63,435 bases of DNA from a virus, in IMG/VR virus record IMGVR_UViG_3300033146_005951, positions 1 to 63,435 of that record. One strand, given 5' to 3'. The notes beneath the pieces are model-generated. The model was not told where the DNA came from, made no database searches, and saw only the letters and a list, made by a program, of their open reading frames with translations. The translations under genes and the position numbers were made by a program. Positions 3,504 through 57,676 of this stretch are shown in pieces (positions within the stretch are counted from its first letter, which is position 1; each line of letters opens with the position of its first letter).

Positions 3504-5762
3504 ATGAGATGGTCATTTCCTCCAATAGAAACTATTAGCCCATATTTAATGGGTAATATGGAATTTGATTTACGAGACCCTCAAATTAAAGAACAAGTTA
3601 GAAATTTAATTTTTTATGATGATGAGTTTTTGTTTCGTACTTTATTGGGTTTAGATGATTCATTATTTTCTTACGATATCCATTCAAACTGGCTTCAGTT
3701 AGCAGAAAAAGATCGCAAGACTATGTTGTTAGCCCCAAGAGATTCTTTAAAATGCTTGCATCCATTAACACTTGTACCTAGTAAATTTGATTGTCATTAT
3801 TTAAAAGATTTACCTGAACAAACTCAAATTAGTTCTGTTTTTAATTCTCAAGAATCAAATGTTAATGTTAAAGGTACAAGTACTACTGATTATGTTATTC
3901 GAATAGTTGCAGATGATCCTTTTAATTTTTGGGTTCATGCATCTAGAGAACACGAGTTTTTTTGCTTTGATATGACCCGGTCCGAATTTGTTGTTATCAA
4001 AGCTGAAAATTTAGATGTCTCTAATCATCTTCCTCTTATATCCAAACCACCTAATTTTAAACCTTTCATTGAGGCTACAGATTCTATTTTAACTTTAATT
4101 GCTTCTGATACTATGAAGAAGTTTAATGCTGAAGGGAAAGTTGATAGCCGAATTTTTAATTTAAGTACTGATTCGTTTATTAAATTATTATCAAAATTAA
4201 AATTTAAACATGTTGATGATGTTAATCCATTTACTTTTAATACCATTCAAGTTTTAAAGTTTTACCATGGATTAATTAAAGGACCTCCTAATATATTATC
4301 TATTATAAAAGAGAAACTTATGCTTAAAAATAAACGTTCTTTAAGTATAGGTGAGATAGCATTTTTACTTGATGCAGATACAGACTTTAAACCAACACCC
4401 TTACAAACATCAGAAGGGACATATTTCACTAAATTAAAAAGTGTTGATCATATATCTATTGCGCCTGAAAGGTTTCAATTTGTAGATATTAATACTACAA
4501 ATAAGCATTATATTGCGAATGGGTTTGTGACACATAATTCAACAGTTCGTACAGTAGGTGGGATTCTTAGACGCGCTCTTAAAAATCCCGAGAAAAGGTA
4601 TGCTATTATTTCTGCTACGGGAAAATTGGCAAGCGGTTATGTTAGAAAAATAAAGCGTATTTGTGAATACAATCCTATAATTAGATATTGTTTTAATGAT
4701 GTGGTTAGTCCTGCAGATATAGTAAAGTGGTCCGGTGAAGCATTGGAATTTAAACGTAAATCAATATTTCCAGAACCGACGATTTGGAGTTTAGGGGTAG
4801 GTACAGACTTTACTGGATTTCATTTTGACGTGGCGTATTTTGAAGATTTAGTAACAATTAAACATAGGCATTCAGTAGCTTTACGTAAATCAACATGGGA
4901 TTGGTTTAAATTAACGGCAATTCCAGCATTGGATAGAAAGAGAGGGGAGGGTCATATTACAGGTACAAGATATCATTGGGATGATATGTATACTAAAATT
5001 ACTGAGATTGCTGAGTCATCTGGATCATGGAAAATATTGAGGCAGCCTGCTTGTGATGAGGATTTGTTAGCCCAAGGTATTTATAAATCGTTTTGGCCTG
5101 AAAGATTTTCTGAAGAAGAGTTGCAATCTATTCGTGAAGAGTATGGAGAAGAAACTTTTCAATTACAATATCAAGTTGCAGGGGGTATTGTATTAGGACA
5201 GAAAGAATATGTTCAAAAATTGCGAGATGCAATCATTCCTTTAGAGTCTAATGTAAAAGTTGTAGATCATGTACTTGGTGTTGATCTTGCAAGTAAGGGA
5301 TTAGCTGATTCGAGAGTTCCAACTCATAGAAAATCAAATTTTAGTATTACTGTGATCGGTAGGCATACTGAAACAGGTAAATATATCGTTTGTGATGTTA
5401 AGAGCATTAAAAGACCTTCTCTTAGCGATCAGCGAGAATATGTATATTCAGAATATACTACATATAATTGTTTAAGTGCAGGAATTGAATTCAATGCATA
5501 TCAGAATGTGTTTAAAGAGTATTTAGAAGAAGGTAGTACTCCAATTGGAATAAAACCAATTAAATCATTTAATTCAAAAGATGCCAGGCATGATTTTATT
5601 ATTGATTTAATTAAATCTGGGGGTTTATTTTTTCTTGAGGGAATGTGCCAACCTTTAATTGATGAGTTATTTACTTACCCTGAAAACACTGCAGATAGTA
5701 TTGATAGCTGTTTTTTTGCTTTAAAGGTCAGTATGCGTGATGTGAATCTTAGGTTTGTTTAA
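3504..5762 (+). CDS. terL: Large terminase subunit (packaging ATPase/nuclease) with in-frame intein
   Basis: The 752-aa precursor should splice to about 490 aa, a normal TerL length. The N-extein (1-83) ends in LLAPRDSLK and the C-extein (346-752) begins STVRTVGG, which together rebuild the Walker A loop APRDSLKST. Walker B and the catalytic acids are at 442-448 (DVAYFED). The C-terminal RNase H-like nuclease has the first-strand Asp in GVDLAS (D594) and late acids D731/D734. The protein would pump phage DNA into proheads and cut concatemers. Because the intein splits the P-loop, unspliced protein should be inactive as an ATPase. Neighbouring portal and protease genes confirm the packaging context. 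Confidence 0.92.
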   Translation: MRWSFPPIETISPYLMGNMEFDLRDPQIKEQVRNLIFYDDEFLFRTLLGLDDSLFSYDIHSNWLQLAEKDRKTMLLAPRDSLKCLHPLTLVPSKFDCHYLKDLPEQTQISSVFNSQESNVNVKGTSTTDYVIRIVADDPFNFWVHASREHEFFCFDMTRSEFVVIKAENLDVSNHLPLISKPPNFKPFIEATDSILTLIASDTMKKFNAEGKVDSRIFNLSTDSFIKLLSKLKFKHVDDVNPFTFNTIQVLKFYHGLIKGPPNILSIIKEKLMLKNKRSLSIGEIAFLLDADTDFKPTPLQTSEGTYFTKLKSVDHISIAPERFQFVDINTTNKHYIANGFVTHNSTVRTVGGILRRALKNPEKRYAIISATGKLASGYVRKIKRICEYNPIIRYCFNDVVSPADIVKWSGEALEFKRKSIFPEPTIWSLGVGTDFTGFHFDVAYFEDLVTIKHRHSVALRKSTWDWFKLTAIPALDRKRGEGHITGTRYHWDDMYTKITEIAESSGSWKILRQPACDEDLLAQGIYKSFWPERFSEEELQSIREEYGEETFQLQYQVAGGIVLGQKEYVQKLRDAIIPLESNVKVVDHVLGVDLASKGLADSRVPTHRKSNFSITVIGRHTETGKYIVCDVKSIKRPSLSDQREYVYSEYTTYNCLSAGIEFNAYQNVFKEYLEEGSTPIGIKPIKSFNSKDARHDFIIDLIKSGGLFFLEGMCQPLIDELFTYPENTADSIDSCFFALKVSMRDVNLRFV
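3753..4538 (+). other. Intein inserted in the terminase Walker A loop
   Basis: Residues 84-345 (262 aa) of the terminase precursor form an intein. Block A begins with the nucleophile Cys84 (CLHPLTLVPS). A block-B-like stretch VHASREHEFFCFD follows. Block F reads FQFVDINTTNKHYIANG, and the C-terminus is FVTHN followed by Ser346 as the +1 nucleophile. Removal joins APRDSLK to STVRT, restoring a terminase P-loop. A mini-intein needs only about 130-150 aa. The extra 110 or so residues in the middle show no clear LAGLIDADG or HNH motif, so they may be an eroded endonuclease. Confidence 0.9.
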
Positions 5763-10538: not shown

Positions 10539-10554
10539 GCCATTGGAAACAGTA

Positions 10555-11793
10555 ATGAAAAATGCACAAGCTATTAAAGATGCTCAACAACAGTCCAAGA
10601 GTGATAAATTATTAGGTCCAGGCCATTTTGTTTATATACCTAAAACAACTGTTTCAATTCAAGGCTATCGTGAAGCAGAAGTTTTTTCTTTAGAACAATT
10701 ATTTGAGTATATAGATAAACTTAAAGTTAAGTTTGATAATAAAATTCCTGAGTTGGCAATACAGAAAAAGTTTGATGGAGTTTCGATTGAGATACATAGA
10801 ACTTCAAGTAAAATAACAATATTCACCGGTCATGGTAATATAGTTACTAAACGGATGCCTTCATTAATAAAGAAAATTTTAGATGAATTACCTAAAGAAG
10901 ATTTTATTGCTATCGCTGAAGTTGAAATATGGAATGAAGGGGTTCATTTAGGAAGAAGCGCTGTATCTGGATATTTAAACGCAAAGACTCACCCTGATGA
11001 TTCAAATTTAGTAATAAATTTCTTTGATTTAATTTGGTTTAATAAAAGAGATATTCATAATAGCGATTATAAATATAGATATGCACAATTAAAAAAATTT
11101 AATTTTTCTCAGTCTCTTATAACTAAACCTAAGCCTGGATTTAATTTAGTACCTACTTTTATAGCTAATCAAATCACAAGTATTCAACAAGCAGTAGAGT
11201 CGGTATCTAAACCTAAAGAGAGTGAAGGTTCAATTTTAAAACTTTGGGGTGGGTTTAAGTTTAGGTTAAATAGATTTACTAATGAAATGATTAAGTATAA
11301 AAAGTTTGCTGAAGGTCATTTCGTTGTTTTAGGCAAAAGGATTATATCAGGAACTAGGAAAACTTTTCAATATGAATTTGGTGTGGCCCTTTCTGTTTCT
11401 GAAAAGAAAGTTGTTGATAAGTCAAAAGTAATAAAATATAATAAACAAGATTATTTGGTATGCGGTAAAACATATAATACTAATATAAAGGCATTAATAG
11501 GTGATGTATTAACCATTAGATTTAACAATTTAAGTATCTATCATAATAAAAAAGACGAATCATATGTTGGTATTTATGGGCCTGTTGTTTATGAAAATAG
11601 GACTTTAGGTCAAGAAGATGAAGATCCCGATACCTTCACTACTCTATTAGCTATTGGTGAGGAGTCTGGTTTGTTAGTTGAGAAGGGTGTTGGGGTATAC
11701 ATTTCTAAAGTTAAAGATATTTTTATGCAATATCCTAAAGAAGGCAGTAGTCTTAGATATGTCATGCAGGAACATTTTCGTGGCAAAGCCTGA
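10555..11793 (+). CDS. ATP-dependent polynucleotide ligase
   Basis: The 412-aa product (from ATG 10555; an upstream TTG at 10543 would add four residues) has the nucleotidyltransferase motifs in order. Motif I is KFDG with the lysine nucleophile near residue 72. A downstream Arg follows in IEIHR. Motif III is AEVEIWNEG, motif IV is EGSILKLW and motif V is MIKYKKF. A C-terminal OB-like part follows (GDVLTIRFNNLSIY). It seals nicks in DNA by a lysine-AMP intermediate. Its DNA specificity is inferred from the overall length and neighbouring phosphoesterase-like gene; an RNA ligase is less likely. Both candidate starts lack a strong ribosome binding site. Confidence 0.85.
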   Translation: MKNAQAIKDAQQQSKSDKLLGPGHFVYIPKTTVSIQGYREAEVFSLEQLFEYIDKLKVKFDNKIPELAIQKKFDGVSIEIHRTSSKITIFTGHGNIVTKRMPSLIKKILDELPKEDFIAIAEVEIWNEGVHLGRSAVSGYLNAKTHPDDSNLVINFFDLIWFNKRDIHNSDYKYRYAQLKKFNFSQSLITKPKPGFNLVPTFIANQITSIQQAVESVSKPKESEGSILKLWGGFKFRLNRFTNEMIKYKKFAEGHFVVLGKRIISGTRKTFQYEFGVALSVSEKKVVDKSKVIKYNKQDYLVCGKTYNTNIKALIGDVLTIRFNNLSIYHNKKDESYVGIYGPVVYENRTLGQEDEDPDTFTTLLAIGEESGLLVEKGVGVYISKVKDIFMQYPKEGSSLRYVMQEHFRGKA

Positions 11794-18896: not shown

Positions 18897-18968
18897 ATAC
18901 AGTGCACATATTGCACATAAATTATTAATTGATCTTAACAGATCATAAATTTTATAGGAGGTAATGCA

Positions 18969-21900
18969 ATGCCTTATAATTTACCTAAGAGGAGGATTTT
19001 TAACTACTCCAATTCACTTGGGCTATCAACCAGTAATGGTTGACGGAATCTCCTTGAATTCGAGGGAAGCCTTATCAGGTGGTGCTGAAGGTAATCTCGA
19101 GCTAAGCTCTATATATTAATATAGAGAAAGTGTAACGGCCATTCCGAAAGGAAGTACTTTACAAGTGTAAAGGAAGCGGGGAGCTCCTTATTAAAAACAA
19201 TAATATAGTGTAAGGCCTATGTTTAATAAGGATGGTGAAATGGTCTAATCTTTATGGAAACATAAAGTTGCAGGTAATGCTGCGAGTAAGGCTTAACGAA
19301 TCTTACTGAATATAAATGAAGTACAGTGCACAAAACTTCTCTATTGGACCTTGTGTTGTCTATATGGGGAATTTTTGCACATCCGGTTTGGCCACGTGTG
19401 AACCTCAGGTAGATGTCGGAGGTGTTAACTCTGGCGCTACACTGACTACTACGCGTGAGAAAACGGAGATCTTTCAAGGGTTCTAGGGAGCCGTCCTTAT
19501 AGGTAACTATGGGGATTATTACTCTGTGAATTGCTGGAATATCCTAAAGCCAAATAAACTACAAAGTAACCTTGAAATAGAGGTAAGCTTGAATGTTGCG
19601 AAAGCAGAAAAAATTATTTGGATTGCATAAGGTTAAATATCCTAAGTGTTAAGTTATAATGGACAATCAGCAGCTAAAAAATTAGTTCATCGACTATTCC
19701 GTAAGGAAGTACTCCGTAAGTACGGAGGAAGCGCAGAGCATCTATTAATTCAATAGATGAAGATATAGTCACAACTTCTTCAGAAATGAAGAGATGCTTA
19801 TTTATTAAGCAACGTAAAAGTAACGATTTTACGTAAGATTAGCAAGTCCCGAATGGTATAGACATGGTACAAGTTTAATACTTGTACTAGTATGGATGTA
19901 AATGAATGTTTGAGTTTGTAATCAATACTAATTCCTAAAGAGGAAATATAATGAGTTTAGATATAGATAAACTATTAGTAGATGTTTTAGATAAAGGTAG
20001 CACTTTTCATAATTACAGTGATAAGGTATCCAATCCAAAATTTAAGGCTGATATGGATTTTGATTTAAAACGCAGAAGAAATGAAGTGGCAAAGTTTTTA
20101 AAAGTTGTTGATTTGGAAGCTTCAAAATCAAATCAAACAGCTAGAGTTTTGCAAAAAGAAGGCTTTCAAGGTAGGATTCCAGAAAATTTAATTGAACTGG
20201 ATTTTGACTTTTCTTCAGTTAAATCTTCTGAGTTTATTCAAATCCTTGATGGGTTGGTATTTAGTGATGGGTATATATCAAAGAGTAATTTTAAATTAGG
20301 TTCTACTTTTCTTTGGTATGTTAATGCTGTACGAGGTTTTTTTGAGCATTTTAATTGGATTACTCGTTGGTATGCGTATCCAGATAAATCTGGCTGGACT
20401 GATAAGTTATCTTTTAATGTAGATACTTATCCTACACGAGACAATCCTTTTTCAATGAAAGCATATCGTAAGTGGTGGTATCCAAATGGAAAAAAAGTTA
20501 TTCCTAAAGATCTGGAAATTTCACCTCTAATGATGAATGCTGCGTGGTGTGGTGATGGTGGCTACATGAGTGATAATGCAGGTATGCTTTATACTAATAG
20601 TTTTACTGTTGAAGACGTAGATTCTTTTATATTACGTTTAAATAAGATCGTAGGTTGCAAAGCCAAAAGAAGATTCAAAAAACAAACTCAACCAGTAATA
20701 TTTTTCTCATCAGATGAATTCCAAAAGCTTTTATTGTTTATGGGTTCTAAACCTATAATTCCAGGTTTTGAGAAAAAGTTTATGATGCATCCAGATAATT
20801 TTCGGCGAGTGCCAGCAATGGTACGGGAAAAATCTCTTCTAATCAATGACGAAAGCTCAAAAGTCAAGGTTATTCAGCCTTGTGAGGGTAACGTACAGCA
20901 AGTTTTGCAAGATGTAAAGGACTTTGCTTCTTTAATTAATAGTGATGGTACTTTTATGATTCACAGGAAAACTAATCAAAGCAATTGTTTTGAGAGGCCT
21001 CAATACTTACCTGTATTAAAGATATCATCTACTAATAGAGAATTAGTTACTGCAGTAGCACGTAACTTACGATTATCTAGAATTAAAGAAACAACTCCTA
21101 AATATGGTATTGCACATAGATTTAGACTAACTACTACAGGCAGACCAGTCATTCAGTTCATTAAAAAACTCCTACCTTATTTAAATGAGGAGAAGAAAAT
21201 TGTGGCTGTTATATTATTAGCTTTGCCTATGGGTAGAGGTTATCATGAATTAAAACATTCAATCTATGAACAATTCTTAGAAACATCCAAGGCATTACAG
21301 CTGCAACGACTGAACGAAGAGACCCCACTGCAATTAAAAGTAGTGGGAGGTGCACCAGTCTAGTTGTTTAAAAAGACTTGTAATGAGTCACTTTATTGTA
21401 AAATAAAGTTTTATATGCAATCGAAACCCTAGTTGATCAATTTGCGACGCAGGAAACGGCTGTACTCAAGTTTGAGTCTATTGAGTGGAACGTTTCCAAT
21501 CTCGTTAAAGCTTTGAGTGCAGGTATTGTTACTCAAGGCACAGATGTAATTGATAAAGCATTAACTCAAGTTACTGCAAATGGTGATGCTGCAGAAACAG
21601 ACTTTACTTTTGCTATGACACCTACTACTGGTATGGCAGTATTGCCTGAATCAGTAATTGTGACAGATGGTACTGAGACATTTACTGATAATGGCGATGG
21701 TACTCTTACAGGTGATGCTACTGGTACTGGTACAGTAAATTATGCAACTGGTGCAGTTAGTGTATCTTTTAATGCTGCCCCTTCAGTAGGAGTAGGTAAC
21801 GTTACATGTGATGCAGATGAAGGAGAGCTTCTTTGTACTGTATCCGGAACGCCAACTTATAACATGCTGTTTTTAAAGTGGCCCTATGTAGCACCTAGTT

Positions 21901-22403
21901 CAGTAACTATTTATACTGGGGGGGGCTTAAGTTGTTCTGATGATGGCGCAGGTGGCTTGACTGGTGATATTGTAGCTGCAACTCCGCCTGACCCGGATAA
22001 TTCTATTGAATATGAAACTGGGCGTGTAGATGTAACTTGGAATGCTGCTCTTACTGCTGGCGAAGTAATTGTTGCTGCGTATGACGGAACAAAAACTGAA
22101 ACATTGAGTTTTGGCGGACAAATTTCTTTTATCGATGTTGCACTTAAACTAGTTCATGATACTCCAAAAGGTAGTACTATTACTATTAAGATTTGGAAGG
22201 CTCAGGGATCTGGTGCACTTGATATGACTTTTGGTGATGATGCCCATACATTCCCGATGGAGTTTAATGCAATGGTTCCGTTTGATCCATGCACTAAGCA
22301 AGTACTCGATTGGGCTGGTGATCCTCTTATCGAAGGTAAACAATTATTTGAGATAACAATTGAGAAGGCTGCCGGAACATGTACTGGTGATTGCGCCACA
22401 TAA
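18969..22403 (+). CDS. Major tail (tube) protein, three exons split by two group I introns
   Basis: Exon 1 starts at ATG 18969, six bases behind AGGAGGT, and gives MPYNLPKRRI/F. Exon 2 runs from about 19322-19329 to 19481 and encodes QNFSIGPCVVYMGNFCTSG through TREKTEIFQG. Exon 3 runs from 21418 to 22403 and continues SIETLVDQFATQETAVL. The joined protein is about 390 aa. It is beta-rich with two immunoglobulin-like inserts of the form DGxGxLTG...YxTGxVxVxF (about exon 3 residues 60-140 and 150-200). It ends with a TFPMEFNAM strand typical of tail-tube proteins. It should polymerise to form the tail tube, whose length the giant tape measure sets. Unspliced mRNA yields no full-length product because both introns contain stops. 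Confidence 0.8.
19001..19328 (+). ncRNA. Group I intron 1 in major tail gene, ORF-less, about 325 nt
   Basis: The 5' site lies at 18999-19001 and the 3' site after a G at 19321-19328; three junction choices keep frame. Exon bases before the site pair with an internal guide GGAATCTCCTT (19045-19055), ending in U-G pairs. P5 is CTCTATAT/ATATAGAG (19107-19126). P7 strands are GGCCAT (19137-19142) and ATGGTC (19240-19245). A GAAA tetraloop hairpin CTTTATG/CATAAAG closes P9 (19250-19267). A P1-loop hairpin TCAACCA/TGGTTGA is at 19026-19043. The core resembles cyanobacterial-type group I introns (AATCTCGAGCTAAGC element). No coding capacity is seen. Confidence 0.8.
19482..21417 (+). ncRNA. Group I intron 2 in major tail gene, 1936 nt, encodes endonuclease
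   Basis: The boundaries are well defined: exon 2 ends AAGGGT at 19481, paired with the guide GTCCTT (19493-19498) including the U-G splice pair. The intron ends in G at 21417, after which TCA is rebuilt as an in-frame serine codon. Conserved core elements are visible: GCAGCTAAAA, P7 strands CGACTAT (19691-19697) and ATAGTC (19765-19770) within the hallmark GAAGATATAGTC. These are like T4 and SPO1-type group IA introns. The LAGLIDADG gene lies in a peripheral loop after P7. Confidence 0.9.
19951..21363 (+). CDS. LAGLIDADG homing endonuclease of intron 2
   Basis: The 470-aa protein starts after AAAGAGGAAATATA. Two LAGLIDADG-type motifs are seen: ILDGLVFSDGYI (about 98-109) and FASLINSDGTFM (about 326-337), so one chain can act as a pseudo-dimer. 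It should cut an intronless copy of the major tail gene near the exon 2/exon 3 junction and so spread the intron. An N-terminal helical segment of about 90 residues precedes the first motif. Maturase activity is a further possibility for this family. Reading frame and length are intact. Confidence 0.85.
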   Translation: MSLDIDKLLVDVLDKGSTFHNYSDKVSNPKFKADMDFDLKRRRNEVAKFLKVVDLEASKSNQTARVLQKEGFQGRIPENLIELDFDFSSVKSSEFIQILDGLVFSDGYISKSNFKLGSTFLWYVNAVRGFFEHFNWITRWYAYPDKSGWTDKLSFNVDTYPTRDNPFSMKAYRKWWYPNGKKVIPKDLEISPLMMNAAWCGDGGYMSDNAGMLYTNSFTVEDVDSFILRLNKIVGCKAKRRFKKQTQPVIFFSSDEFQKLLLFMGSKPIIPGFEKKFMMHPDNFRRVPAMVREKSLLINDESSKVKVIQPCEGNVQQVLQDVKDFASLINSDGTFMIHRKTNQSNCFERPQYLPVLKISSTNRELVTAVARNLRLSRIKETTPKYGIAHRFRLTTTGRPVIQFIKKLLPYLNEEKKIVAVILLALPMGRGYHELKHSIYEQFLETSKALQLQRLNEETPLQLKVVGGAPV

Positions 22404-24091: not shown

Positions 24092-27000
24092 ATGGAAAAT
24101 ACAATAATTCCTTTAAGTTTTGATGTAAGTGCTCTTCAAGGCCAACTTGATGATATTACTAAAATAATGAATAAGACTTTTGCTTCGTTTGGTAGCAAAG
24201 GACAATTCAAAAGTCTTTCTACTGCCATGAATTCATTTAAAGGTAGTTTTGGTACTATCAATAAATCATTAAAAAGTATTGATTCTAATTTAGGTTTACT
24301 TGTCATTAATATAAATAAGATGTCGAGTAGTTTACAAGAAACAGGTAAAGAAATGAGTACCTTACGACAAGGTACTAAAGATAGTATTGTTACTACAGAA
24401 AAACTTGTTGGTGGTTTTAGTAAAGTTCAATCTGAAGTTAAAGAAACTCAATCATTATTAAAGAAACCTATGAGTTTAAATATTGATTTAGGTAAGACAG
24501 ATCTTGTAGGTCCTCTTGAAAAGCAATTAAGTACAGCACAACAAAAAATTAACCAAGCTTATAAATTTGAAACCCCTATTGGAAAGAAAGCTATATCTTT
24601 TGTTGATGAGACTAAAGTCAAAAATGATGTCAAAGTTTTTGAGAATGCTTATTCTGAAATTAAAAATTCGTCAGATGCTATGATAACTTATGTTCGTGGG
24701 ACTACTCGAGATATTCTTAAGCATCCTATGAATTCACTTGAGCAGTTTCAAAATTTATGGACTAGAACTATTTATAATCTACAGTCGCATAAGACAGGGC
24801 GAGAAGCAATTCCTTTATTCACTCTTACAGGTTCTGAGCTTGGCCCCATATCTGCTGCAATAGAAAAATTAGCTGAATTTCGAAAAGTAAGGCGAGGTTT
24901 AGATGTTGAATCCTTAAAGAGTTTTGAAAGTAGGCCTTTTGAAGAATTAGCTAAATCTTTAAGTAAATCTGGGTTTGCATATGACGAATTAATTGAAGCA
25001 GCTAGGGCTTTTAATGTATTGGAAGTAACTGGAGAAAAGCATATAGATGCTAATATTAAACAAACCAAAGAATATAAAGTTTTAGAAAAAGCTATTAAAT
25101 TATATTCAGAGGCTGTGGCTGTGGCTGATAGACAAATGGAAAAATCAGGAACAGTATCTGATGGGCAGGTAACAAAAGTAAAAAAATTAAAGCTTGCAAT
25201 GGATGAAGCAAGAAAGTCTGTAAGCTTAAAAGGAGAAATCGTATCAGTTAATGCTTTAGCTGGGACATTAGAAAATTTAGGTGATGTTGCCGGCACAAAA
25301 GTTACAGCTGCATTTCATAAGTTAGCTAGTTCATCTAAAAAGATTGGTAAGGAAACATGGGCTAAAGTTTTTGAGGCTAAAGATATTGGGGGATTTCAAA
25401 AAGCATTAGTTGTTTTAGAATCAAAATTAGGTCAAGTTGGTAAATCTAATCCACAAATTGAAGCGTTATATAAAAACTTTAGTAATATAAAACAAATTGC
25501 TGAAACTCATTTTGCTGCAAAGATGTCTGCTGAGTTTGAGGAAGGTGCAAGTAAATCTGAGAAAAAAATTGGTGAGTTATATACTAAGATAACTAAGTTA
25601 CAAAGTCAAGTTGCAAAAGGGGAGCTTCCTCAAAGTGCTTTAGTTGGTCCATTCAAAGCACTTTCAAAAGAAGTTGAATCTCTAATCAAACGCTCTCAAG
25701 TATTAAATGTTTCTTTAGATCAAATAGAGCAATCTAAGGGTCCTTCGGCAATGCGGTATGAGAAAGGACCGAAATCAAGTAGTACAGAATCTCGTGACCT
25801 TGCAACAACATATCAGGAAGGTGTTAGTGAAAAACAAATTTCTTCTTTAAGCACTCTTCAGTCTGGATTAAGAGGAGTTGCTGATCAATTAATATATGCA
25901 AATACTGAACTTAAGGTTTCTGAGGCTGCGTGGGTAAGTTGGGGAGAAGCTAGAAAAAAGATTGTTTTTGATCTTCGTAAAATTACAAGCGAATTTGAAG
26001 TACCGGTTGAAGATGTTTCTCGTACAGATATATCTAAGAAACATAGACAGTATGCAGATTATCAAAAACAAATTGATAGTTTAGTTAAAAAAAGAAAATT
26101 GCTTGGTATGGTTGATAAATCAAGCTATTCAGAATCTCTTTCACAAATGAAAAAAGTATTATCTGGATTACCTCAATTAAATGATTTACAAAAAAGAGGT
26201 AACCAAATTGTACGTGAAAGAAAAGCTTTACTTGATGCTACTGCAGGTAAAGAAAAGACCCCAGAACAAATAGCTCATCTTGAAAAATTAAAGAAGCAAT
26301 ATAAGGAAGTTAAAACTGCTGAAACCGAAGTTGCGAACGTTACTTTATTAATTGCAAATGAAATGGATGTTCTTGCAAGTAAGTCCGCTTTTAATCCAAC
26401 AGATATCGCACGTATCTCAGAGTTTGCTATTGAATTACAAAGAATAGATTCTCTTATTAAAACCATTAGCGGTAAGTCTTCATTGAGTATAAGCGCAGAT
26501 GTTGAAACCTTACAGAGAAGTTTAGGTACGATTAGTAAGGATGCTATTCCAATTAAGACAAAAATCACTATTGATCAGAAAGCAATAGATAAAGAGATTG
26601 CTACATTAGGCCAAAAATTTCATGCTGCAATGGCTAAAGAACCTAAAATTCGTACAGAGACAAGAACAAAAACTGCGTTACAAACTATCCGTTCAACTCA
26701 AAATGCAATTGGTAAGTTAGATAAACAATTGTTTGCAATGACGGATTCTGCAAATGTTGCTTTGCGTAATATCAGAATGGATAAAGCTTTAAATCCTAAA
26801 GATGCAGAGCAGTTAATGAAACCATTACAAAATTTAGTTTCTGAATTTTCTGGCTTACAAAAAGATATTTTGTTAATAGATGAGTCTTTAACTAAATTAG
26901 GTTCTAACCCAACTGAAGAACAAATGCAGAAGGCCTGGTCTCAGCTTGAGCCTGTCTTTTCTAATGCTTATGAGAAGATGAATTTATTTTCTGGGGTATA

Positions 27001-30000
27001 TGATAATCTTTCAAAAAAACAAGGTGGTGCGACTGCTGCAACTAATAATATGGTTTCATCACTAGAAAGGTTAATGCAAAAACCTACACGTGCAGCAAAG
27101 TCATTTGATATTTTAATTGATTCATTATTAAGAACTCAGGGTATAGCAGGAAAAACAGATTTAGCTAAACAGTTAAAATCCCCCGATAAAGCAATTCGTG
27201 AATATGCACAGAAAATTTCTGCGTCAATTGGAAAAGCAAGAACTGGCTTAGATACTATTGCTGGAGAAGCTCTTGGCCCTGAGGCAAATAAAAAAATTAA
27301 GCAGAATATAAAAAGAGCAGAAGAGAATTATGTGAAGCAGGTTGCTGATGCACAAAAGCGAGCCAGACGTAAATTAGACTCATTAATTAAGAAGGCAGAG
27401 GCTGGTCCTGGGTTAAAACGTAGTGGTGCTATTGATAGTGCAAAAGCGGCATTTGGTAAAGAAATTGGCGCATCTATTATTTCTGCAAAAAAAAGCTTAG
27501 AACAAGAGAAAGAAAGAATTCTTAATGTTCCTGTAAAATTAAAACCAGGTGTTGAGGCTGATCTTGTACTTAAAAAATGGAAAAGTACAATACAAGCTTT
27601 AGTTACTGATTTTGGTCAAGGAGGTAATTTAGCTGCTCAGAAATTTCAAGAAATGTATGCTTCAACAGCAGGCGGTTTTAAATTTGATCAGTCATTGTAT
27701 AATGTAGCATCTAAAACTAAAAGCTTATTGGGTCAAACTGGTTCGTTCTTTAAAACAATGGGCTCTCGTAGTGGTGATGTTCTGCCTTTAGAAGAATTCG
27801 ATCAATTAATTAAAAGACAAAAGCAGTTTCAAAAAGAAGGGGCACTTAGTACTGTAGCTCTTAATCCAATTATTGAGTTAGGTAGTGTTATATCAAATAC
27901 TGCTAATGTATTTGATAAGATGAAATTAGCAGTTAAAGCTTCTGCTTCTCCAGAGGTTATAGATAGTATTCAAAAAGAAATTGATCAATTCATACGTCTT
28001 CGTAAAACATCAAAAGATTCAACTGCACAATTATCTCAGCAAACTAAAGAAACCCGTGGCTTAGGTTTCACCATGGAAAAATTTGGTTATGCTATTGATC
28101 TCCTTATTCAATATTTAGAAAAAGCCATTAATAAATTTCAAGGTTTAGGTAAAACTGCGCACACTGCACTTAGTGGCATTGGGTCAAGTTTAAGAGGCCA
28201 AGCTGGTTTATTTAAATCAGGTTTAGCAGATATTGAAGGACCAATGTTTGATATTAAGCCTGAAGGATTTAAGTTAACCAAGCCTTTAGAGTCTATGTTT
28301 TCTGAGATATATAATTCTTCATTAACTAGTTTGCAAGATTTACGTAAGGTGACTGATAAAGGGTTATCTGCTTGGTCTGTAAGTTTTAAAGGAGGATTGT
28401 CGAAGACTGATAATGTAATAAAGCAAAATGGGTCTGCTTTAATTGGGGGTTTAAGTAAAATAAGAAAAAGTGTTCAAGCATCTACTGTTGTAAATTGGGG
28501 TAATATAATTGATCCTAAGGGGGCTGAATTATTAAGAAAATCAGCAGTGGGTATTGATTTACAATTAAAAGAACTGCAAACAAGTATCGCAAGGTTTAAA
28601 ACTGGTAAGATTTCAGAGGTATCTTCCTTTCCTACAGTTAAAGCTTTACAAACTCAATTAAAAACAGTATTATCTGTATCTGAAGAAGTTAAGCGTAAGC
28701 TTGCAGCAGGTAAATTAGGCATGGAACATTTTCCAGCAGTTGATAAATTACAACAATATGCCCTACAATTAACTGCTGCAATTGATATGATCGAAAAACC
28801 ATATAAATCTATGAAAGGATTAGCTGGTCAAGAAGAAAAAGTTAGCACAAAACAATTAGGCAAATCTTTTAGGTCAGGAATAATAGGTGCTCAAAAAGAA
28901 TTAGAGGCTGCTGTTAAACAGGTAAAGACTCCAATGAAGTCTGTTATGGTCAGGTTATTTGAAGACGTGCTTTCAATGACACCTACTGAGATTCCCCAGG
29001 CAGCAGGAATGATGAGGAGTTTAGCTGAACAGTTTCCAAGTCAAATGCAATCTGCTTTTAATGTAATGGGTAAGAAAAAATATGAAGTAGGTAAGTTCAT
29101 TGCAAAAATGTTTAGCATAGATCCAAGTGAATTTAAAACAGTTGAAGCAGCTATGGAAAAGAGGGGAGCTGAAATTCCTAAAATGCTTCTCAAGGCTATT
29201 TTTCTAACTGAAGGTCAGGCAAAGTTTGCAGCAGATGCAAAGAAGTTGGCTAATCAAGTAATTACTGCTCCCCTAAACAAAGCCCTTCGGTCAGCAGGAG
29301 AAGTCACTATGCCCAAATTCGAAACTTTTCGAATTGGTGATGAAATGATGAGAGCCGCAAAATTTGAAGGTGAAAAATTTACTCAAGTAAAGTCTCAATA
29401 CGGAACTTACATTTCAAGTTTAATTAATGATATAAGCAAACTTATGAAAGTTTCTCCATCAAAAACAATGAAACCAATATTGGAGAAAATTTTTAATGCA
29501 AGTGATGTTAATGATATTAATGCTTATGCAAATGGCATGAAAGGGGCTTTAAGCAATATAAAAGATTATCTTCAGAAAGCTGTATCTGGTAAATTGCCAA
29601 AAGGGCAATTAGCAGCTGGTTTAGGTTTGCAAGAAGAATTTAAAGTAGCAGGTTTAGATATAGATGAAAATGAACTATCTCAAATGTTTGAGCAAATGTA
29701 TAAGACGGCAGGTCAATCATTAAAAGATTTTGTTGCTCAAGAAAAAAGGTGGAGCTCAGATTCGATTAAAGATTTAATAATATTAATGGAGTACTGGGAA
29801 AATTTAGGTGGCATGGTTGATATGGTAACCAAAAAGATACCTAAAGTTTCTAATATGAAAAACATTTCTGAAACAATGTTTAAGGGCACAGAGAGCGGTT
29901 CAGTTGCAGCTGGCCGTGATATGGCTCGATTAATGGTTACAGCATTAACATCTACTTTATCTGAGGGAAGCGGAATAAAACAACCTTTAGCTGCAATGAT

Positions 30001-33000
30001 TGGCAAATCTCCTGAGGTCATATTTGAAATAATGCGAGGTACAAATCAAAAACTTAAAAATGAATTAAGAGATTTAGGTTTTAATTTACGTGGAAGTACT
30101 ACAGATTTAGTTAAAAGTATTTCTAAGTTGGGTGATGTAAAAGTAGGTACTGAATGGTTTGAACAATATAGATTGGCAAATGAGAGATTTAATATAGAAG
30201 GTGAAAAAACAGGCATAGTATTAAAAAAGATCCGTGATGGATTTAATACAATAACACCTTTAAGTTCTGAGGGGTTATCTGAACTTGCAACTCGTTCGCA
30301 AGATTTTCTTACTAGAGCAGGTATTGCATTTGAAAGCTTTGATACAAAGTTGTTTAAGCACTCTATTAACTTTAATGCATTTAGTGAAAAAGAAAAAGCT
30401 AATGTTGGAAAGTATACTAATATACTTTCTAAAGGTATGCGTACTATAGGACAATTCCTCCAAGAAGATCCTTTTTCAGGTAGCATAATGCGTTTAGTTA
30501 GAGAAGAAGATGTTCTTTGGGAGAAACTAATTGTTTCTGCTGATAAAGGAGGCAAGAAACTTAAAACAAGCATTCAATCTGAATTAGCTAGGGCACTTGA
30601 TACAACCAAACGTGAAGGAATTAATTTAAATAGATTATTCAAAGGCACTGGTAAAGTTCCTGAGCTCCAAGAAATTATTGGGCAGTTAATGGAGTTACGA
30701 AAAACCAAGCGTGCAGTTGATACTGAAATGATGGCACCTGGTGTTAGACCTTTTAGTAATCTTATTAAAGACGCTTCATTACTGCAAGGAACATTATTAA
30801 CTGCTTTTGGTAGTATATCTAAAGGATTGTCTCGTGTAGGTGAGACAGGCAAAGTAGATATTAAGATGGGCAATTCTATCAGAAATCTTGATACAGTTAC
30901 TCAACATTTAAATATACTTCAAGCAGAAATTGACGAAACAATTGCATATGCAAAAAAGACAGGTCAAACTTTACCTTTAGAGTTTCAATTAGTAACGCGC
31001 TCAGTTTCAGATATGGGTTCGAGCCTTAATAGTTCATATGAAGTTTTAAAAAAGTTACCTACTCACGCAAAGGTCTCTGAAAAAGATATGGAGAAACTTG
31101 CTGAGACAGTAAATAAATCTGCAAGCGCTTTGAAGAAATTTGATCAGATAGATCTTAAAGAATTTTCTTCTAGAGTAGGTACAGCAATGTCTATTGCTAT
31201 GAATAAGGTTAATGCTTTTAGTAAGCAAGCTCAAATAAGGCCTTCATTTCAGCTAGGTAAAACTGGTGTTGATCAAATACTTAAAGCTACTGGCAGTGAT
31301 TCTGATAAGATGATTCAGCAATGGAGAGAGTCTGCTGTAGCAGGTGGTGATACATGGAAACAGATGACAATGTTTCTAAAAGAATTAGAACCTGAAATGA
31401 AAGGAATTTTTGAACGTTTTGCAAGTAAGCCTAGATTATTATTAAAAGCTTTTGATAAAATGACTCCCCAGATGAGAATATTAATGTCTTTATATTTTAA
31501 TGAAATGGGTCATTCTACCGCACAAGGTTTTCAAAAGTGGATGCAGACATATGATAAATATTTTAGCGGTATGACAAAAACAAATAAAAGGCATCTTGAA
31601 ACCTTTTTAGGATATACCTCTCAAACTATGGCATCTTTTAAAGCCCCTGATGTAACTAAGTATTTTGCTCCTGAAACAGGATTAGAAGCAGATAAAACAA
31701 CAGAAGGGTTAAAGAGGCTTGGTAATGCTTTATCTAAACTTGGCATTAATATGAAAGAATTAAAAGATCTTTCTGGAGATACTTCGTGGTTGAAAAAGTG
31801 GGGAGAAGCTTTTGCTACACCTATAGATTGGGATTTTGGCCCAGGCAAAGGGAAGACAATTCAACTTACTGGTACGTTTAGTATGTTTGCTAAAGCAATT
31901 ACTCATGTAGGTGAGGGGTTAGATATATTAATGACTCAGTTGCGTAGAGTAGGAGAAGAAACTCAATCTGGTGCAATTCAAAAAGGAATCAAACAATTAG
32001 TTGCCCTCATTATGCAATTAGATGCTGAGTTTAGTAAAACTTCTAAATTTAAATTATCTATTGGTGCAGGATTAAGTACAAGCTTAAAACCTTTAAGAGA
32101 TGTAGGTTATGCAATAAATAGTTTCTTTGATGCAATGGAAAAAATCAAACTTGCTTCAGATTTTACTTTAACTCAAAAAGAAATTAGTTCATTTGGTAAT
32201 ATAGTTATAATAACAATGAATCAAGTTGCTGCTGCAATGAGTCCTGCTGTTAAAGCTTTAACTGGGTTTGCAAATACAACTGCTGTTAAAAGATTCTCTC
32301 AGTTTGCTCAAGGATTACGTGATTTAGTTGCTGCGACAAAAGACCTTTATCAATTTACAGCTGTATTTAGTGAGATAGACAAAGATTCTAAAAAAGGAGC
32401 TACTGCGTTAGGTCATTTTGAAAAAGTAATGAAATCAATGATGATCTTATTGAATAGCATTCCTGATATATCTAAAAAACTTAATTTTGGTGTAAGTAAA
32501 GATGCAGCAAATAATGCTAGAATGCTTGTTGAGGTATTAAAGCCACTGGCTCAATCTATGTTAATGATTGGTGAGGCTTTTAAAGGAAATGTTAATATCG
32601 AAAGCAATATGAAGAGATTTTCTTCAGCTTTAAAAGGAATGATTAATGTTATTAGAAGTGTTGATTTAGATCCAGTAACTAAAGATTTATTAAATGATAT
32701 ACGTAAACTAACTCAAATATTTAGTTCTAAAGCTTTAGTTGCAACACCTGATGAGGCAGAAAAAAGGCTTCAAGTCTTGGCTCAAGTAATTGAGCAAGGA
32801 TCAAATAAAGTTGCACAAAAAACTAAGCAGGGTATTGAGAAGATGAATCGAGCTTCAAAGACCCCAAAGACTGATTTTTTAACTGATTTAGGTATTACTC
32901 CAGGCAAGGCTACAGGTGGTGGGGGTATTGTATCTGATTTAATGGATATTCAAACTAGTTTTTCAGAGCCAGTGCCAAATTTTGATGCCAGTGAACAAGC

Positions 33001-36000
33001 AATGGGGCATTTAGCTAGTGCTGGAAAAGAAGTAGGAAAAGTACTTCAAGTTATTAACAATGCTGTAATTAAGTTAGGTTCAGAATTTAAAGAAATTCTT
33101 CCTGGAGAAGAAAAGTTTATTACAGAATTGACTCAATTAGCTGCATTGAATCCTGCTGCAGCTATTGATAAATTAAATATTAAATTGAATTCGTTAGGTA
33201 AAAATTTAGCGGGTGATAATTTAAAGAAATCACAAGATGCAATACAAGGGTTTATAATTGAATTATTAAATGGTGCTGCAGGTCTTAAATCAATGGGTGC
33301 TGCAGGTACTGAACTGCAGAAGATCCATGATAACTTAAATAAAGATACAGTTAGCACTAAAGAATTAACTATTGCATTGACAAAAGTTAAAGGAGTTTTA
33401 AAGAGTGTAGAGGTTGAATCTGCAAAACTTGATTTACAAAATCGATTATTAAAAACAAGAGGGGAGGCTAAAGGTGTCCATACAGAAATAAAAAGTTTAC
33501 TTATGTCTATGAAAGCATTAGGTCCCGAGTTTAGAAAATCTCTTTCTACTGGTGATGCTAGGCGTGAATTCCTTTCTTATTCAAATGAGCTAGGTTCAAA
33601 ATTAGAGACTGCAATGGGTCCAATGAGGGCATTTTCTGGATTCAAAGGAGTTAGCGAAGAAATTAAAAAAATGACTTCGAGTATGGCCGTATTAAAAAGC
33701 CAATCTCAAGGCATGGTTACTTTAGCAGATCGGTTTACAGGTAAATTAAGAATTGCAGGAGATCAGTTTTTAAATCTAGTTGCATATCAAACTAGGTGGT
33801 ATGTTTCACAACAAATCTTTTTTATGGGGTTTGGTCAGATACAAAAAATACTTTCTAATTTTGGTGCTTTGGATATTCAAGTAAGAAGAGTTCTTCGTGT
33901 TCTTCGTGATTCTAATAATGCAGTGTTGGGTATTGATTCTTCAATTCGGGCTTTATCTGGAGCAGGTGTTAAGTGGGCTTCTGATTGGGCTCAGAATATG
34001 GAAGTAATGTTTAAGGCCCAGACAAGATCTACGTTTTATAGTTTATTTAAACAACTTGGTACAACCTCTGAAGAAATTGGTGAGTCCATGTATCAGTTGG
34101 GTTCTGCAGGTTTGCAAGCAAATGAAGTAATGTCTGCCATTGAACCAACTCTTCGAATGATAATTGCTACTGAAGGTGAAGTTAAAGATACTACTCGATT
34201 GATAGCAGGTGTTTTTAATTTATATGGAAATTCAATTGAAGGAGCAAGAACAAATACTGAAAAGTTTGTATATATCACTGATGTATTAACTGCAACATTT
34301 AGAGATCATATGGTTACGATTGGAGAACTCATTACTGGTATAAGTTATACAATCGCTACTGCTAAACTTTCTGGTATGCAATTTGAAGAAGTAACTGCGG
34401 CACTTGCAGTTTTAAATGATAATATGTTAAAGGGTTCAAAGGCGGGCCGTGCATTTAATAGGATGCTTTTAAATTCAACTAAAAGATTAGATGAAACAAA
34501 AGATATTTTACAAGCAATTGGAAATCAGGCAAATATAGGAGTTGATTTAACAAAGATTTTTGAGGGGTTGGAAGTCAGTGGAGCTAGACCATTTGATTAT
34601 ATTATTCAAGCTGGCATAGCAATGCAAGAACAATTAAAGACTGCTAATCTTACAGTAGAGAATTTAACTAGGACTTTTAAGTCTATGGGTGTAGTTGGTG
34701 CTCGTGCTTTTGCCATCCTTTTATTAAAAGCTGGTGATTATGAAAAGACATTATTTCAGTTAAAATATGCTGCGTTTAGTGCTGGCGAAGATATGTCTGA
34801 ATTATTAATTGGTGGTTTTGATAGATCAATTCATCGAATTGAAGGTTTCACTCGAGCAGGTTATGCGCGTGTAATGGGAATAGCTCGTGGCGGCGTTACC
34901 GTATTAGCTTCAATGGTTCAGCAAGTAGAAAGTGGTATTAAGAGAATTTCTGAAATGCCTTTTATTCCAGATATTCCAGATGTTAAAAGTTATATTTCAT
35001 TTTTTGGTGTAGTTGCAACTGGTGCTGCAATATTTGCTGGAATTAAGAAAAAGCCTTTGCCTGGATTAGATGCTTTGAGGTTTGATAAGTGGGCTAAAGG
35101 AATTAATAAGTTTACTCTTAATATAGATCAAAACAGAACTGCATTAAAGTTACTCAATGTTGAATTAAGAAAGACTGGATTAAATGCAATTAATTTAGGT
35201 CAAGCATATGAAACTGCAGCAAATAAAATGACTGCAATGAGTAAAATGGGATCTACAATGTCTACGTTTAAAGGACTAACTGGATTAACGTCGTCTTTTA
35301 AACCTCAACAACAACTTATTATATCTGGTTTAAAAGATATTGAAAGAGCTTATACAAAAGTAACTTCAGGCAAATGGAGTATGGGAGATCTGACTGAATT
35401 TAATAGCCAGATGAAATCAATTGCTGCATTCGAACCGACTTTCTTAGCCCGTGAGAAAGAATTTACTATTAAAACTAATTTAACTCGAACCATTAGTGAG
35501 TTTCAAAGAGGATCAATTTCTGCTGATCAATTTAGAGATAGACTTAATGCTGTTCATAAAGAAACTATTAAAGCCAGTGGAATGTCAAATTTAACTACTA
35601 AATTAGATATTTTCGAAAAAGAATTAGCAAGTGGTTCTATGACTATGAGCCAATATACTACTAAATTACGTCAGTTGGGTATTGAAGCAAATAAATTAGG
35701 TAGTATAAAAACTTTTGGATTAGGTGCTGTATCTACAAAAGGATTTGCTGAATCATTTAAAGGAATGAGTAAGTTAAATAAATTATATTCTTCGAACATG
35801 GATCAAATGAGCAAGATAGGCATTAAGTCTATGGATCAAGTTTTTAATTTAGTTAGAAATCCTGCAGCTTGGAGTGAATTTGCATCTAATATGACTAAGA
35901 GTTATAGTAAATTTGATTCTCAAACTCAAAAAGTTTCAAATCAGTTTGGTAGGTTAGTCGATCAAATATCAACACCAATTCGTAAAGTATCTATAGGAAT

Positions 36001-39000
36001 TTCTCAAGATGCTATGGAAAAAGATTTTGTTAAGCAAACAAAAAGCATGTCTGTTTTAAAAGAATCTTGGAAAGGATTTGCAGGAGGTGTTGGCCTTGGT
36101 ACTTCAAAGTTAACAAGTTGGTTTAAAACTATGCGAAAAGTAATGAGTGGCATAGTTCCTCAAATTGGAGAATTTGATTCTTCATTCAGTAAAGCAGTTG
36201 CCAAACGTGAAGCTTTAGTTAAGGTAGCTGCAGGATTTAGAGGAATAGGTGGAGCAGCACGTGGAGCAGCTATAGCAGTTAAAGGATTCTTAGCGTCTAC
36301 TATTGCACTTTTAGCTTTATCTGTTGCAGTGCAAAAAGCTTTTGAGTGGTTCGAAAAACTTTCGCGTGGTACTGAGTATTATGCACAAATATTGGGTACA
36401 GTAAACGCTGAATTTAATAAAACTGTTGCAAGCCTTACAGGAAATATATCAGGAATTACTAGATATGTTGATAAGCTTAGTGAATTACGTGAGTCCATGA
36501 ATATGCGTCTTAAAATTGATGCGGATATAGAAACCAAAGAATTTAATAGAGATTTGTCTCATTTAAGTGGTTTATTAGAAGGTACTTTTCAATTTGAAAA
36601 TTTTGAATTTAATGTAAAATATGGTACTGTAACTGATGCAATTGTTGCTTGGAGGGATTTAAATGATGTTATTGCAAATTTAAAAGAAGAGACATCAAAT
36701 AAAGCAATTGGTCGATTTGTTGAATTAGGCAATGAGTATAAAAAGGCAAGTGAAATTTATAAAAATACAATTACAACTGCACTCGAAGGTTCTTGGTTGA
36801 AATCTCGTTGGGATTCTTTTAGGGGCAAAGAGAAAAGCACTAGTTTAAAAATTAAAATAGAAGATTTGAGTGACCCAGATAAAGTTAAATTTAAACGCCA
36901 AGGCCAAGAAGCAGCCAAGCTCATGATTGATTCAGCTAAAATAGTTTTGCAGCAGGGCGCTACAACTTTTGATTTAGTGTGGGATAAAAATTCAATTGCT
37001 ACTTTCGATCGACAATTAAATAATGTTTTTGAATCTACAACTTTGTTTGGTGATAGCCTCAAAACTACTAATTTAAAATTTAATGTTTTTATTAAAAGAA
37101 TGAAGCAAAGTGCAAAAACTGCTGAATTATTTGATCAATTTAAAGAAGTTGGTGAAAATTTAAACAAGGTATTTCAAGTAGGGGGTGCTGAAGAGTTTGC
37201 TACTTTTATGAAAATGTTTCCTAATTTAGCTTCTGAAAGTAAAGATGAAGTTAAAGGTCTTGCTGATTCGTGGGCTAGTTTAGGGGAAGATGAGAGAGCA
37301 GTTGTTTTGATTAACGCAGCACGTAAAGATCTTAAATTATTTCATAAATCTATGAAAGCAGTTTCTGCAGATGGTAGCATGTTACAAGCAGCAGATTCAA
37401 CTAAAAAATTTGTTGAGGTTGCTATTACTGACATATCAATGTTAAATACTAGTATTGCACAGATGGGAGGTACATTAGCAAGAGAATTTGAAAGTACTTG
37501 GAGTCGTGCTTGGGGTCAATGGGTCAATGAAGGAGTTACTGCTTCACTTGATGTAGATAAAGCTTTAACTGGTTCTTTTGAGTATGGTTCAAAATCTATT
37601 TTAGGTAAATTAGAAAGAGATATTTCAAAAACCACAGATCCAATAGTTAAGAGTTTTACTTCAGCATATACAAAAGTGGGTAGCGTTTGGGCTAAAGAAA
37701 CCTCTAAAATGATAAAGGACAATAAACTCCCTAAAGCATTTAGTAATTGGGGTAATGAATTAAGAGTTGCTTTAACTAGTCCTTGGGCAAAAGCTAGATC
37801 AGCACAAGATGAGTGGCGTTCAGGTATGAACAATGCTGTTGATGCTGCAATGATGAGATTTAATTTATTGCAAGAATCAATGTCTAAAATGGGTAGTTTA
37901 GTTTCAGAAGAGTGGCTGCGCGCTCAATCAGCAATATCCAATAACACTTCATTTGGTTCTGAAAAAGATGGTGAGGATGCAATAGAAAAATTTACTGATG
38001 GAATAGAGAAATCTTTAAAAGCAGCAATTAAGAGTGGTCATAAGGGAATTCAAGATTTAGCAAAGGCTATGTCTGGTGATGTATCAGGTGCAATAGATTT
38101 AACAGTTAAGCGCATGGAACGCTTAACTAATGTAATTGCACAAGCTAAGAGTCTCAGTATTGAAGTAAAAGATGCAATAAGTAAGTGGGAGGGTAGTATT
38201 GTTTTAACAAATAAAGTTCTTAGTGTTACTCTTGATTATTTGAAGAAGTTTGCTAAAAATGCTGATATATCTAAAACAGTTCGAGATATGAATGTTGCTT
38301 TATTAAAGAATGAAAAACTTAGAGCTAAAGAAGCATTTGAAAGGGGAAAAAAGTTAGGTGTCTCTGATGAGGATAAATTGAAAGGGGCTAAAACTTATTT
38401 AGAAAGATTAGATCAAATCAACGAGAAGCTGATGTCTTCAGCAGTAGAAAGCCTTAAGAAGCATATATCAGATAAGGCTAAAGCTGAAAAGAAAGAAATG
38501 ATTGAGCGACATAAACGAGAGAACAGAGCAGCTAAAGAAAGCCAGTCTTTACGAAAAATATCTTATCGTGAAGAAGTTAAAGATGCAAAAATTCAAGCTG
38601 CTTCTATAAAGAAAATTGAAAAGCTTAGGTGGAAAAGACCAGGTTATAAGGCAGATGTTGATCAGAAAATTGAAAATGAAAAAATGTGGGGTGAGCGATC
38701 TCGAGATGAAAATAGGCATAATAGCGAAATGTCAGCTCAACAAAAAAAGTTTAATGATGATGCAACAAAAGCTCGTAAAGAAAGACAAGCTGCTGAGTTA
38801 AAAACACTTGAAGAGACTGGCGGAAAAACTGCTAAGTCAATGCAAAAATTAGCTGAAGTTTTGGCTGATATTGACAGTGGTGAATTAAAAATAAAAAGTA
38901 TGGATGAATTATTAGTTCATATTACTTCATTGGGTGATCCTGAATTAACTAAGAATTTTAAGTTATATTTAGATGAAATCAAAAATACTAATGTGGAAAT

Positions 39001-42000
39001 ATCTTCTATTGGTGTTGAAGCGAAAGAAGTTGCTGATCGAGCAGAAAAGTCTCGACTTGAGACAAAAGATGCTTTAAAGAGTTTAGTCTCATTGCAAGAG
39101 AAACTTACAAAGTACTCAGAGACAGTTTCTAAACAAAGCAAAGTAATTGCTGATTTATTAAAACGCGAAGGATTAACTCAAGCAATTCAAGCATTAAGTG
39201 CTATGGGATTTAATGTTAAGTTAGATAAAGAAGGAGTGTTTAAAGATGATAAGACTCTTGGAATGTTCAATAAATTAATTGGAGAAGCCAGTGAAGGTTT
39301 AGTTGATGCAGCAAATAAATTACAAGCACAAGTTCAACCTATTAAAGCTTTTGGTAAGATTCCAGTAGAAAAAGAAGATGTTGTTTCTAGCATATCTCGA
39401 CAATTACTTAATCTTGGTAAATCTTTTCCAGAAGTCAGTTCTCATATCGATGAACTTAGCACACAATTTATTATTCAGTTAGATCGTATGAAAGCATCTG
39501 GAAAAACTCAAGAAGAAATTGATTCTAGATTAGGTGTTGTTTTAAGCAGTATTACTGGCATAAGTGATGACGCTAAAAATTTAAATCCGACATCAATGAG
39601 CTCTTATTTAGATGATATAACTAGCATGTTGAAAATCACAAGCAATGATCTTAAGCAAATTGATATTTCAAATATTCAACCATCAACTACAAAAGCTTTA
39701 TTGCAAGAAAAGATTCAACCAATTGCATCAGAAACTACATTGAAAAATATTCAAAAGAATCAGAATAAAATTGATTCTTTTGTTAGTGAATTGCCTCAAT
39801 GGACTGAAGTTGCTGATAAAGTTGAAGAAGTTGCAATTTCTTCTTTTGAGGATGTAAGTCAAATGGCTCAAAATATTTTTGATGCTCAGAAGAAGAAAGT
39901 TCAGGAAGGGTATCTTGCCAGAGATGATTTTCGTTTGCGAGATGGAAAGCTTCAAAAACGTACTGCACAAGCAGATGTAGTGCTTGGAAAAATGATTCCG
40001 ATTGACATCACTAAAATTCTCGATGCAGATACTTTTCAAACTAAAATTGGGGATGCAGTTGTTAATCTAAGACTTGCTTTCATTGATGCATTAGAATCAA
40101 ATCAAGCAGGTAGTACCTTACAAACCGAAGGAATAAGAAATTTAGTTGATGAGTATAAAAAATCAGGTTATAGCATTCAAGCATTTTTTAAAGAGTATGA
40201 TGAGAAAAGCAATAGATTAATATCTACTATTTATGCAACTAAAGATGGTGAAAGTATAGATATCAACCAGGAAGCAATTGCTAGAGGAATTGCACAAGTA
40301 TTTGTCCCTAAAGGAATTATTTCTACTGAAGATAGAAACGTTATTCAGGGTTATGGTAAAATCCAAGAAGCAGCTAAAGAAATGAGTGCAGGTATTCATG
40401 GATTTTCACAATGGTTGTCTACTACGTATCCAAATATGACAATGCAGCTACCTGAGAATTTTAGGGAGATAGTTGGTCGTGGTGATGAAGTAGATATCAG
40501 AACTATTCTTGAAAATGAATCTAAATTAAAGGTTGCATTTAATGAATATTTAGATAAACTTGGTAAAAGTCCAATATACACTGAAGAAGAAATGGCAGTG
40601 ACTGATAATGCAGTTAATCAATTACTTAAATTAGGTTCAACTAAAGGTTCGATATTTGTCCATGATGTTCATTTAGATGAATCGATAAAAAATTTATTTT
40701 CTGCAATAAAAGCTCCTGGTGTGAATTATGAAATACAACAAATGCCTGAAATAAATTCTGAGGTATCAGGTAATTCTATTAAGAATGCTACTGTTAAGTT
40801 AGAAGAAAGTACTTTTAAAGTTAGTGAATTAATGCAAAATCTTGAAGGTGTGTTTGATCAAAATTTTATTAAAACATTGCTTGATGCACTTCCTACAACA
40901 CAAGATACTACAGAAAATTTAATGAGTAAGCTTGCTCAGGAATTTTCTGATTTAAGAGATGTTTTTGTTAAAGGCGTACAATCAATAATATCTGCAATTA
41001 TATCAAAGCAGTTAGTTGTGAATTTACCTAATAACAATGAAATGGCTAATAATATTAAAAAATTTACTGATCAAGCAACTGAGAAAGGGTCAATATTTAC
41101 TCATGATATTCATTCAGAAAGTGCAATAGTAGATTCTGCTAAACAATCAAAAGAAGGTTTAAGTAAAGTTGCAAAAGCACAGTCAGAAACTTCAGTTAAA
41201 GTAGGTAATTATATTTTTGAATTAGATAAAGCAAATGATAGAATTTTTCCTGCTGCAACTACGGGTGTATTTGGTGTGGAAGGTTTAGCTTATGAAAAAT
41301 TTAAAGCATTAGAATTTAAAATTCCAGATGAAGATGTAAAAGGGCTAAGTGAAGGTATTGTTAATTCAATGAAACAATATGCTGCACAGGATAAAAGAAG
41401 ATCAGAAACTACATTGCCAAGTAAAGACTGGTCTGATCAAGAATATCGATCCTTAAAACTTACAAACGCTTTTGATACTGTAATTCCTCAATTATATGAT
41501 ACAGTTGCAGAATTATCTAAAAGTGTACCGGAATCTGCTTATAAAGAGATGATATCTGCAGTTAATGACGCCTCAATGACTTTATCAAATTTTAGTAGAG
41601 AAAAATTAGGAGGCAACCAAAGTATAGTTTATGATGTCTTAATGGAAGCAAGGAATAAAATAAATTCAATATCACAACAATCGCAAATCCAAACAAAATT
41701 ACAACCAGACAATACAAGTAGTAGAGTTGGATTAATTCAAGAATCTTCTAATTTTATTAATTCAATGTCAAAAGTAACAGATCAATTTAATGAGGAATTT
41801 TTAATTAACAATAAGTTACTTAATACAATTAAATCTACTGATTTAAGCGGTTCGATGTTCGATAGAGATAAGATTAAAAATTTATCAATGGAAATTGTCA
41901 ACGGGATGATTTTAATCAAAGATAGTACTACGGGAATAGCCCATGGATTTAAAACAGCAGAAGAAGCAGTTGCTAAAATTGGAGACACAACTTTTAATGC

Positions 42001-56171: not shown

Positions 56172-56184
56172 GGATAAAACAAAA

Positions 56185-57654: not shown

Positions 57655-57676
57655 TCATTATACAAAACCAAATCAT

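Follow-up and report, generated by a model that had tools for sequence, protein, structure and literature searches.

We propose that a single late structural gene of a bacterial virus, most likely the gene for a siphovirus major tail (tube) protein, is split by two group I introns, each from a different phage lineage, and spliced into a 388-aa frame, a reading to which we assign a probability of roughly nine in ten. The gene lies in a 63,435-base IMG/VR virus record, the whole of which we call the window. Its predicted exons occupy positions 18969–18986 (exon 1, 18 nt, MPYNLP), 19319–19481 (exon 2, 163 nt) and 21418–22403 (exon 3, 986 nt, completing the 388-aa probable major tail protein), all on the + strand, as are the other features located in this gene and the tape-measure gene below. 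A Shine-Dalgarno sequence, AGGAGG, can be read at 18957–18962, 6 nt ahead of the start codon.

On sequence comparison, this layout is fixed by an intronless relative. When the exon 3 protein was searched against viral contigs, three contigs (L003, L004 and L005) were recovered in which the gene is intronless and the gene order around it is the same as in the window, and Rfam detected no introns in the three loci fetched from them. The exon 3 protein is 53% identical to the homologue in these contigs. The joined protein aligns end to end with the L005 homologue at 58% identity, its frame open for 388 codons and without a gap at either junction. The L005 homologue starts with MPFNLPKYNTSRFSIG and continues through ...TREKTEIFQGFPKTLVDQL; the window, joined at 18986^19319 and 19481^21418, reads MPYNLP then KYSAQNFSIG at the first junction and ...TREKTEIFQG, S, IETLVDQF at the second, exon 1 aligning with MPFNLP of the homologue. 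L003 and L005 are identical across the fetched 10,963 bases although they come from different metagenome datasets, and the intronless relative thus recurs in separate samples.

The boundaries of exon 2 were also approached by enumerating splice sites, pairing 5′ sites that end in U with 3′ sites that end in G wherever the frame stayed open, and ranking the pairs by protein score. For intron 1, the best pair (18986/19319) scored 361 versus 350 for the runner-up. For intron 2, the best pair was 19481/21418, with the in-frame pair 19484/21418 just one point below; the 5′ site at 19484 would require a P1 loop of 2 nt. An earlier note, made from the sequence alone, had placed exon 2 at about 19327–19481. 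Its end stands, but its start was 8 nt too late, the true start being 19319 (AAG TAC): a start at 19327 breaks the frame, one at 19322 drops a conserved lysine, and an exon end at 19472 deletes FQG, which the homologue has. The further claim that exons 2 and 3 join in frame, with a rebuilt serine codon and a U-G splice pair, is borne out by the intronless homologue and by the enumeration. Against phrog_2175, the closest family to the tail gene, which bears no label beyond "protein with Ig domain," the score rose from 26.9 bits to about 47 when exons 1 and 2 were added, exon 2 having an approximate first start.

Read without splicing, the gene yields MPYNLPKRRIFNYSNSLGLSTSNG and stops after 24 codons, inside intron 1; a message spliced at intron 1 only would end at UAG 19484–19486, just beyond exon 2 (...EIFQGF, then the stop). 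As had been anticipated, a naive gene caller misses exons 1 and 2: the list of open reading frames for the region holds only the frame from TTG 21513 to 22403. A standard gene caller here gives a truncated tail protein without its start, and intron-aware annotation alters the gene model.

Both introns were found in a covariance-model search, as matches to RF00028 above its gathering score of 50, in agreement with the claim that a single gene holds two group I introns; Rfam finds exactly these two in the whole window, and a SNORD36 match at 13767 (E 0.94) was discarded as chance. Intron 1 (18987–19318; 332 nt, no ORF, ending at G19318) matches RF00028 at 18977–19267 over the full model length, with 67.9 bits and E 4e-15, and its fold has a z-score of −3.1. 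Its P1 (18984–19022), which appears in the minimum-energy fold, pairs CCU/AAG across the splice site with CUUGGG and includes the splice pair U18986-G19020. Beside this guide, ACUU at 19016–19019 can pair with the exon 2 start AAGU, a P10 option that, as read in the sequence, would imply P1/P10 exchange. Each of the helices P1, P2, P3, P4, P5, P6, P7, P7.1, P7.2, P8 and P9 can form, with P7 (GGCCA/UGGUC, 19137–19245) enclosing P7.1, P7.2, P3′ and P8. In an alignment of 12 introns (intron 1 and 11 relatives), both sides change in 34 of 65 pairs, versus 7–14 with slid partners, and 83% of cells are paired, versus 31–49% when slid. The P1, P5, P7 and P9 elements reported from the sequence alone thus all pair, with covariation across relatives.

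Intron 2 (19482–21417; 1936 nt, ending at G21417) matches RF00028 at 19461–19793, again over the full model length, with 77.3 bits and E 6.5e-18; its fold z-score is −4.0, and relatives are known. Its P1 (19479–19492) pairs GGU/UC with GAGCC and includes the splice pair U19481-G19490. P1, P2, P3, P4, P7, P7.1, P7.2 and P8 are paired, as is P9 in the Rfam alignment; no clear P10 with the 3′ exon was seen. After P9 lies an ORF of 470 aa with its own ribosome-binding site (19951–21363), a LAGLIDADG_2 homing endonuclease by its matches to PF03161 (residues 97–260, E 1e-11, 45.5 bits against a cutoff of 25) and phrog_11023 (E 2.9e-17); residues 325–416 weakly match a PHROG named for HNH. No close relatives of the endonuclease were found in viral contigs.

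The pair P7.1 and P7.2 between P7 and P3′ is the mark of IA introns. Since it is present in each window intron, and the nearest relatives of each are phage IA-type introns, both are of the phage IA type. The earlier note had likened intron 1 to cyanobacterial or tRNA introns, which does not hold, its nearest relatives being phage introns in protein genes. The same note called intron 2 T4-like with an endonuclease. The ORF is there, but the endonucleases of T4 introns are of the GIY-YIG or HNH type, and the one found here belongs to LAGLIDADG_2.

In the mechanism we propose, each intron would fold into its own ribozyme, intron 1 recognizing the CCU that closes the 18-nt exon 1 and intron 2 the GGU that closes exon 2. 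Both would be removed from the late transcript by guanosine-initiated two-step splicing, the established chemistry of group I introns, leaving three exons in one 388-aa frame, and intron 2 probably homes into intronless alleles by way of its LAGLIDADG endonuclease. Splicing activity, homing and tail-tube function are, in this scheme, inferred. Phage introns usually keep ribosomes off their ribozyme cores; here ribosomes would stay off them because each 5′ splice site is closely followed by a stop. With an exon 1 of just 18 nt, P1 of intron 1 and its 5′ splice site should both lie beneath a ribosome that initiates at AUG 18969. We regard it as unlikely that initiation and splicing are mutually exclusive for this reason and that splicing acts as a required switch for the tail protein.

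Less likely still, exon 2 may be skipped in part of the transcripts, making splicing an on/off choice. Two IA-type introns flank this 163-nt exon, and skipping is reported for Twort orf142 (PMC10136302, PMC11878797). However, skipping would here produce MPYNLPQSKP followed by a stop, a dead peptide of 10 residues, and the different guide sequences of the two introns should limit cross-splicing. It is also very improbable that the gene is a broken remnant whose introns look intact while one is inactive, the virus relying instead on a different tail protein or on translation begun within exon 2 or 3. The gene is known from a metagenomic contig alone, yet its intron cores are complete, intron 1 covaries with its relatives, exon 1 (MPYNLP) and the ribosome-binding site are conserved relative to the homologue, and the endonuclease ORF is intact.

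Splicing of both introns into one frame thus remains our preferred reading, and sequence comparison supports the claim that the two lineages arrived independently. In a tree of 30 cores and 207 columns, which included no IC3 intron, the window introns fall in separate clades, that of intron 2 with six members (UFBoot 97) and that of intron 1 with 14 (UFBoot 73), and their cores share 47% identity with each other, against 65% and 69% with those of the nearest relatives. Intron 1 groups with introns 2 and 3 of the Twort tail-tube gene, and intron 2 with introns of Enterocloster, Alicyclobacillus and SapYZU04. In DNA searches, the nearest introns to intron 1 were those of Staphylococcus phages VL10 and SapYZU04, and those to intron 2 were from PT1-4 (84% over 154 nt), Enterocloster CB457P2 and others. 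Elsewhere, relatives of intron 2 sit beside or between fragments of genes for the tape measure, DNA polymerase, RNA polymerase and capsid. A single arrival followed by duplication within the gene would explain the P7.1/P7.2 block common to both introns (UUCCGNAAGGAAGUACU...AAGU...GGAAGC), and close mutual similarity is reported for introns 2 and 3 of the Twort tail-tube gene (PMC10136302), but the low identity between the window cores and their separation in the tree make it highly doubtful. The exact common motif had no match in viral contigs.

A twice-interrupted tail gene is mostly familiar, given the multi-intron tail-tube genes documented in Twort (orf142) and phage 812; what is notable here is the 18-letter first coding piece. 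Beyond the Staphylococcus-type myoviruses, the window adds to such genes one from a distantly T5-like virus that is represented in metagenomes only; its insertion sites and class of endonuclease are different. Twort orf142 has three group I introns and exon skipping (Landthaler and Shub 1999, as summarized in PMC10136302) and was later named the tail tube gene (PMC11878797). Like the window gene, it is a tail gene interrupted by multiple IA-type introns, two of them (introns 2 and 3) clustering with intron 1 of the window. Unlike it, orf142 belongs to a myovirus, encodes a tube protein of 142 aa rather than 388 aa, and has a first exon of >110 codons rather than six; the LAGLIDADG class of the window endonuclease is a further difference. 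The annotated tube ORFs of Twort and RODI match a 141-position family only to positions 116 and 111, respectively, and are thus cut short. The relatives of the window introns in SapYZU04, VL10 and Twort lie behind the gene that follows the tail sheath. For phage 812, two additional non-coding introns are reported for the tube gene and its neighbor (PMC6445280); there are likewise two introns at a tail-tube locus, but these are non-coding, lie near the 3′ end of the gene and occur in an unrelated phage.

The tail-tube loci of SapYZU04 and VL10 hold four introns each, and their insertion sites and tail protein differ from those of the window. In SapYZU04 (positions 55800–57900), both window intron lineages occur among the four group I introns of one tail-tube locus, pointing to tail-tube genes as repeated targets of introns. 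Another siphovirus tail gene, that of mycobacteriophage BAKA, likewise harbors a group I intron, whose splicing in vivo was shown by RT-PCR (PMC3706429), but it has one intron and is a minor tail gene. Finally, the LAGLIDADG endonuclease in the Nitunavirus DNA polymerase intron is assigned to PHROG 11023 (PMC11878797), the same PHROG as the intron 2 ORF, although the host gene differs; the phiNIT1 protein is 28% identical to the intron 2 ORF over 34%.

As judged from its neighborhood, the intron-bearing gene very probably encodes the major tail protein. Genes for the large terminase subunit (TerL), portal, protease, capsid and connector (head-tail adaptor) precede it and the tape-measure gene follows, with a few small ORFs between. 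The window capsid protein shares 24% identity with T5-like capsids in an alignment that covers 96% of it. In T5 the major tail gene pb6 lies three genes beyond the capsid gene, and the window order matches T5 for the head genes and the major tail gene. This order, the T5-like placement and the downstream tape-measure gene make the major tail protein the best guess. The label "major tail gene" given earlier is therefore probable by gene order but unproven, as no known tail-tube protein aligned; the protein that does align is the intronless homologue. No relatives of the tail protein were found in the PDB or in bacterial genomes, profile comparison with T5 pb6 gave no similarity, and AlphaFold models of the intronless homologue reached pLDDT 35 and 33. 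A scan of intron-bearing phages with phrog_2175 gave no match anywhere, controls included, and is thus uninformative. A match of the N-terminus to Fusobacterium phiPaco (E 3) falls in a 1061-codon ORF near an endolysin gene and is attributed to chance.

The tape-measure protein (24092–43348; 6418 aa) matches PF10145 (E 1.8e-23) and phrog_167 (E 2.4e-19). Tape-measure proteins span about 1.5 angstrom per residue, so a protein of this length would set the tail near 960 nm. Its PhageMin_Tail domain lies at about residues 3320–3490, and the first 1833 residues are without a Pfam match. The tape measure of Thermus phage P23-45 is shorter, at 5002 aa (PMC10770324), and carries an N-terminal RNA polymerase; in the window protein, no DxDxD motif was seen.

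Three further observations concern the rest of the window. An AT-rich cluster of tandem repeats with units of 36–74 bp occupies 58123–58753, in a 1.4-kb stretch after 57654 without an ORF of at least 80 aa. Within the head gene cluster, an ORF at 10543–11793 is weakly similar to ATP-dependent DNA ligases of the NHEJ type. An intein of about 260 residues probably interrupts the terminase large subunit (3504–5762, 752 aa) at what looks like its Walker A region (...PRDSLK, then CLHPLTLV ... FVTHN, then STVRTVG); the Pfam and NCBIfam intein matches are weak and fall below cutoff.
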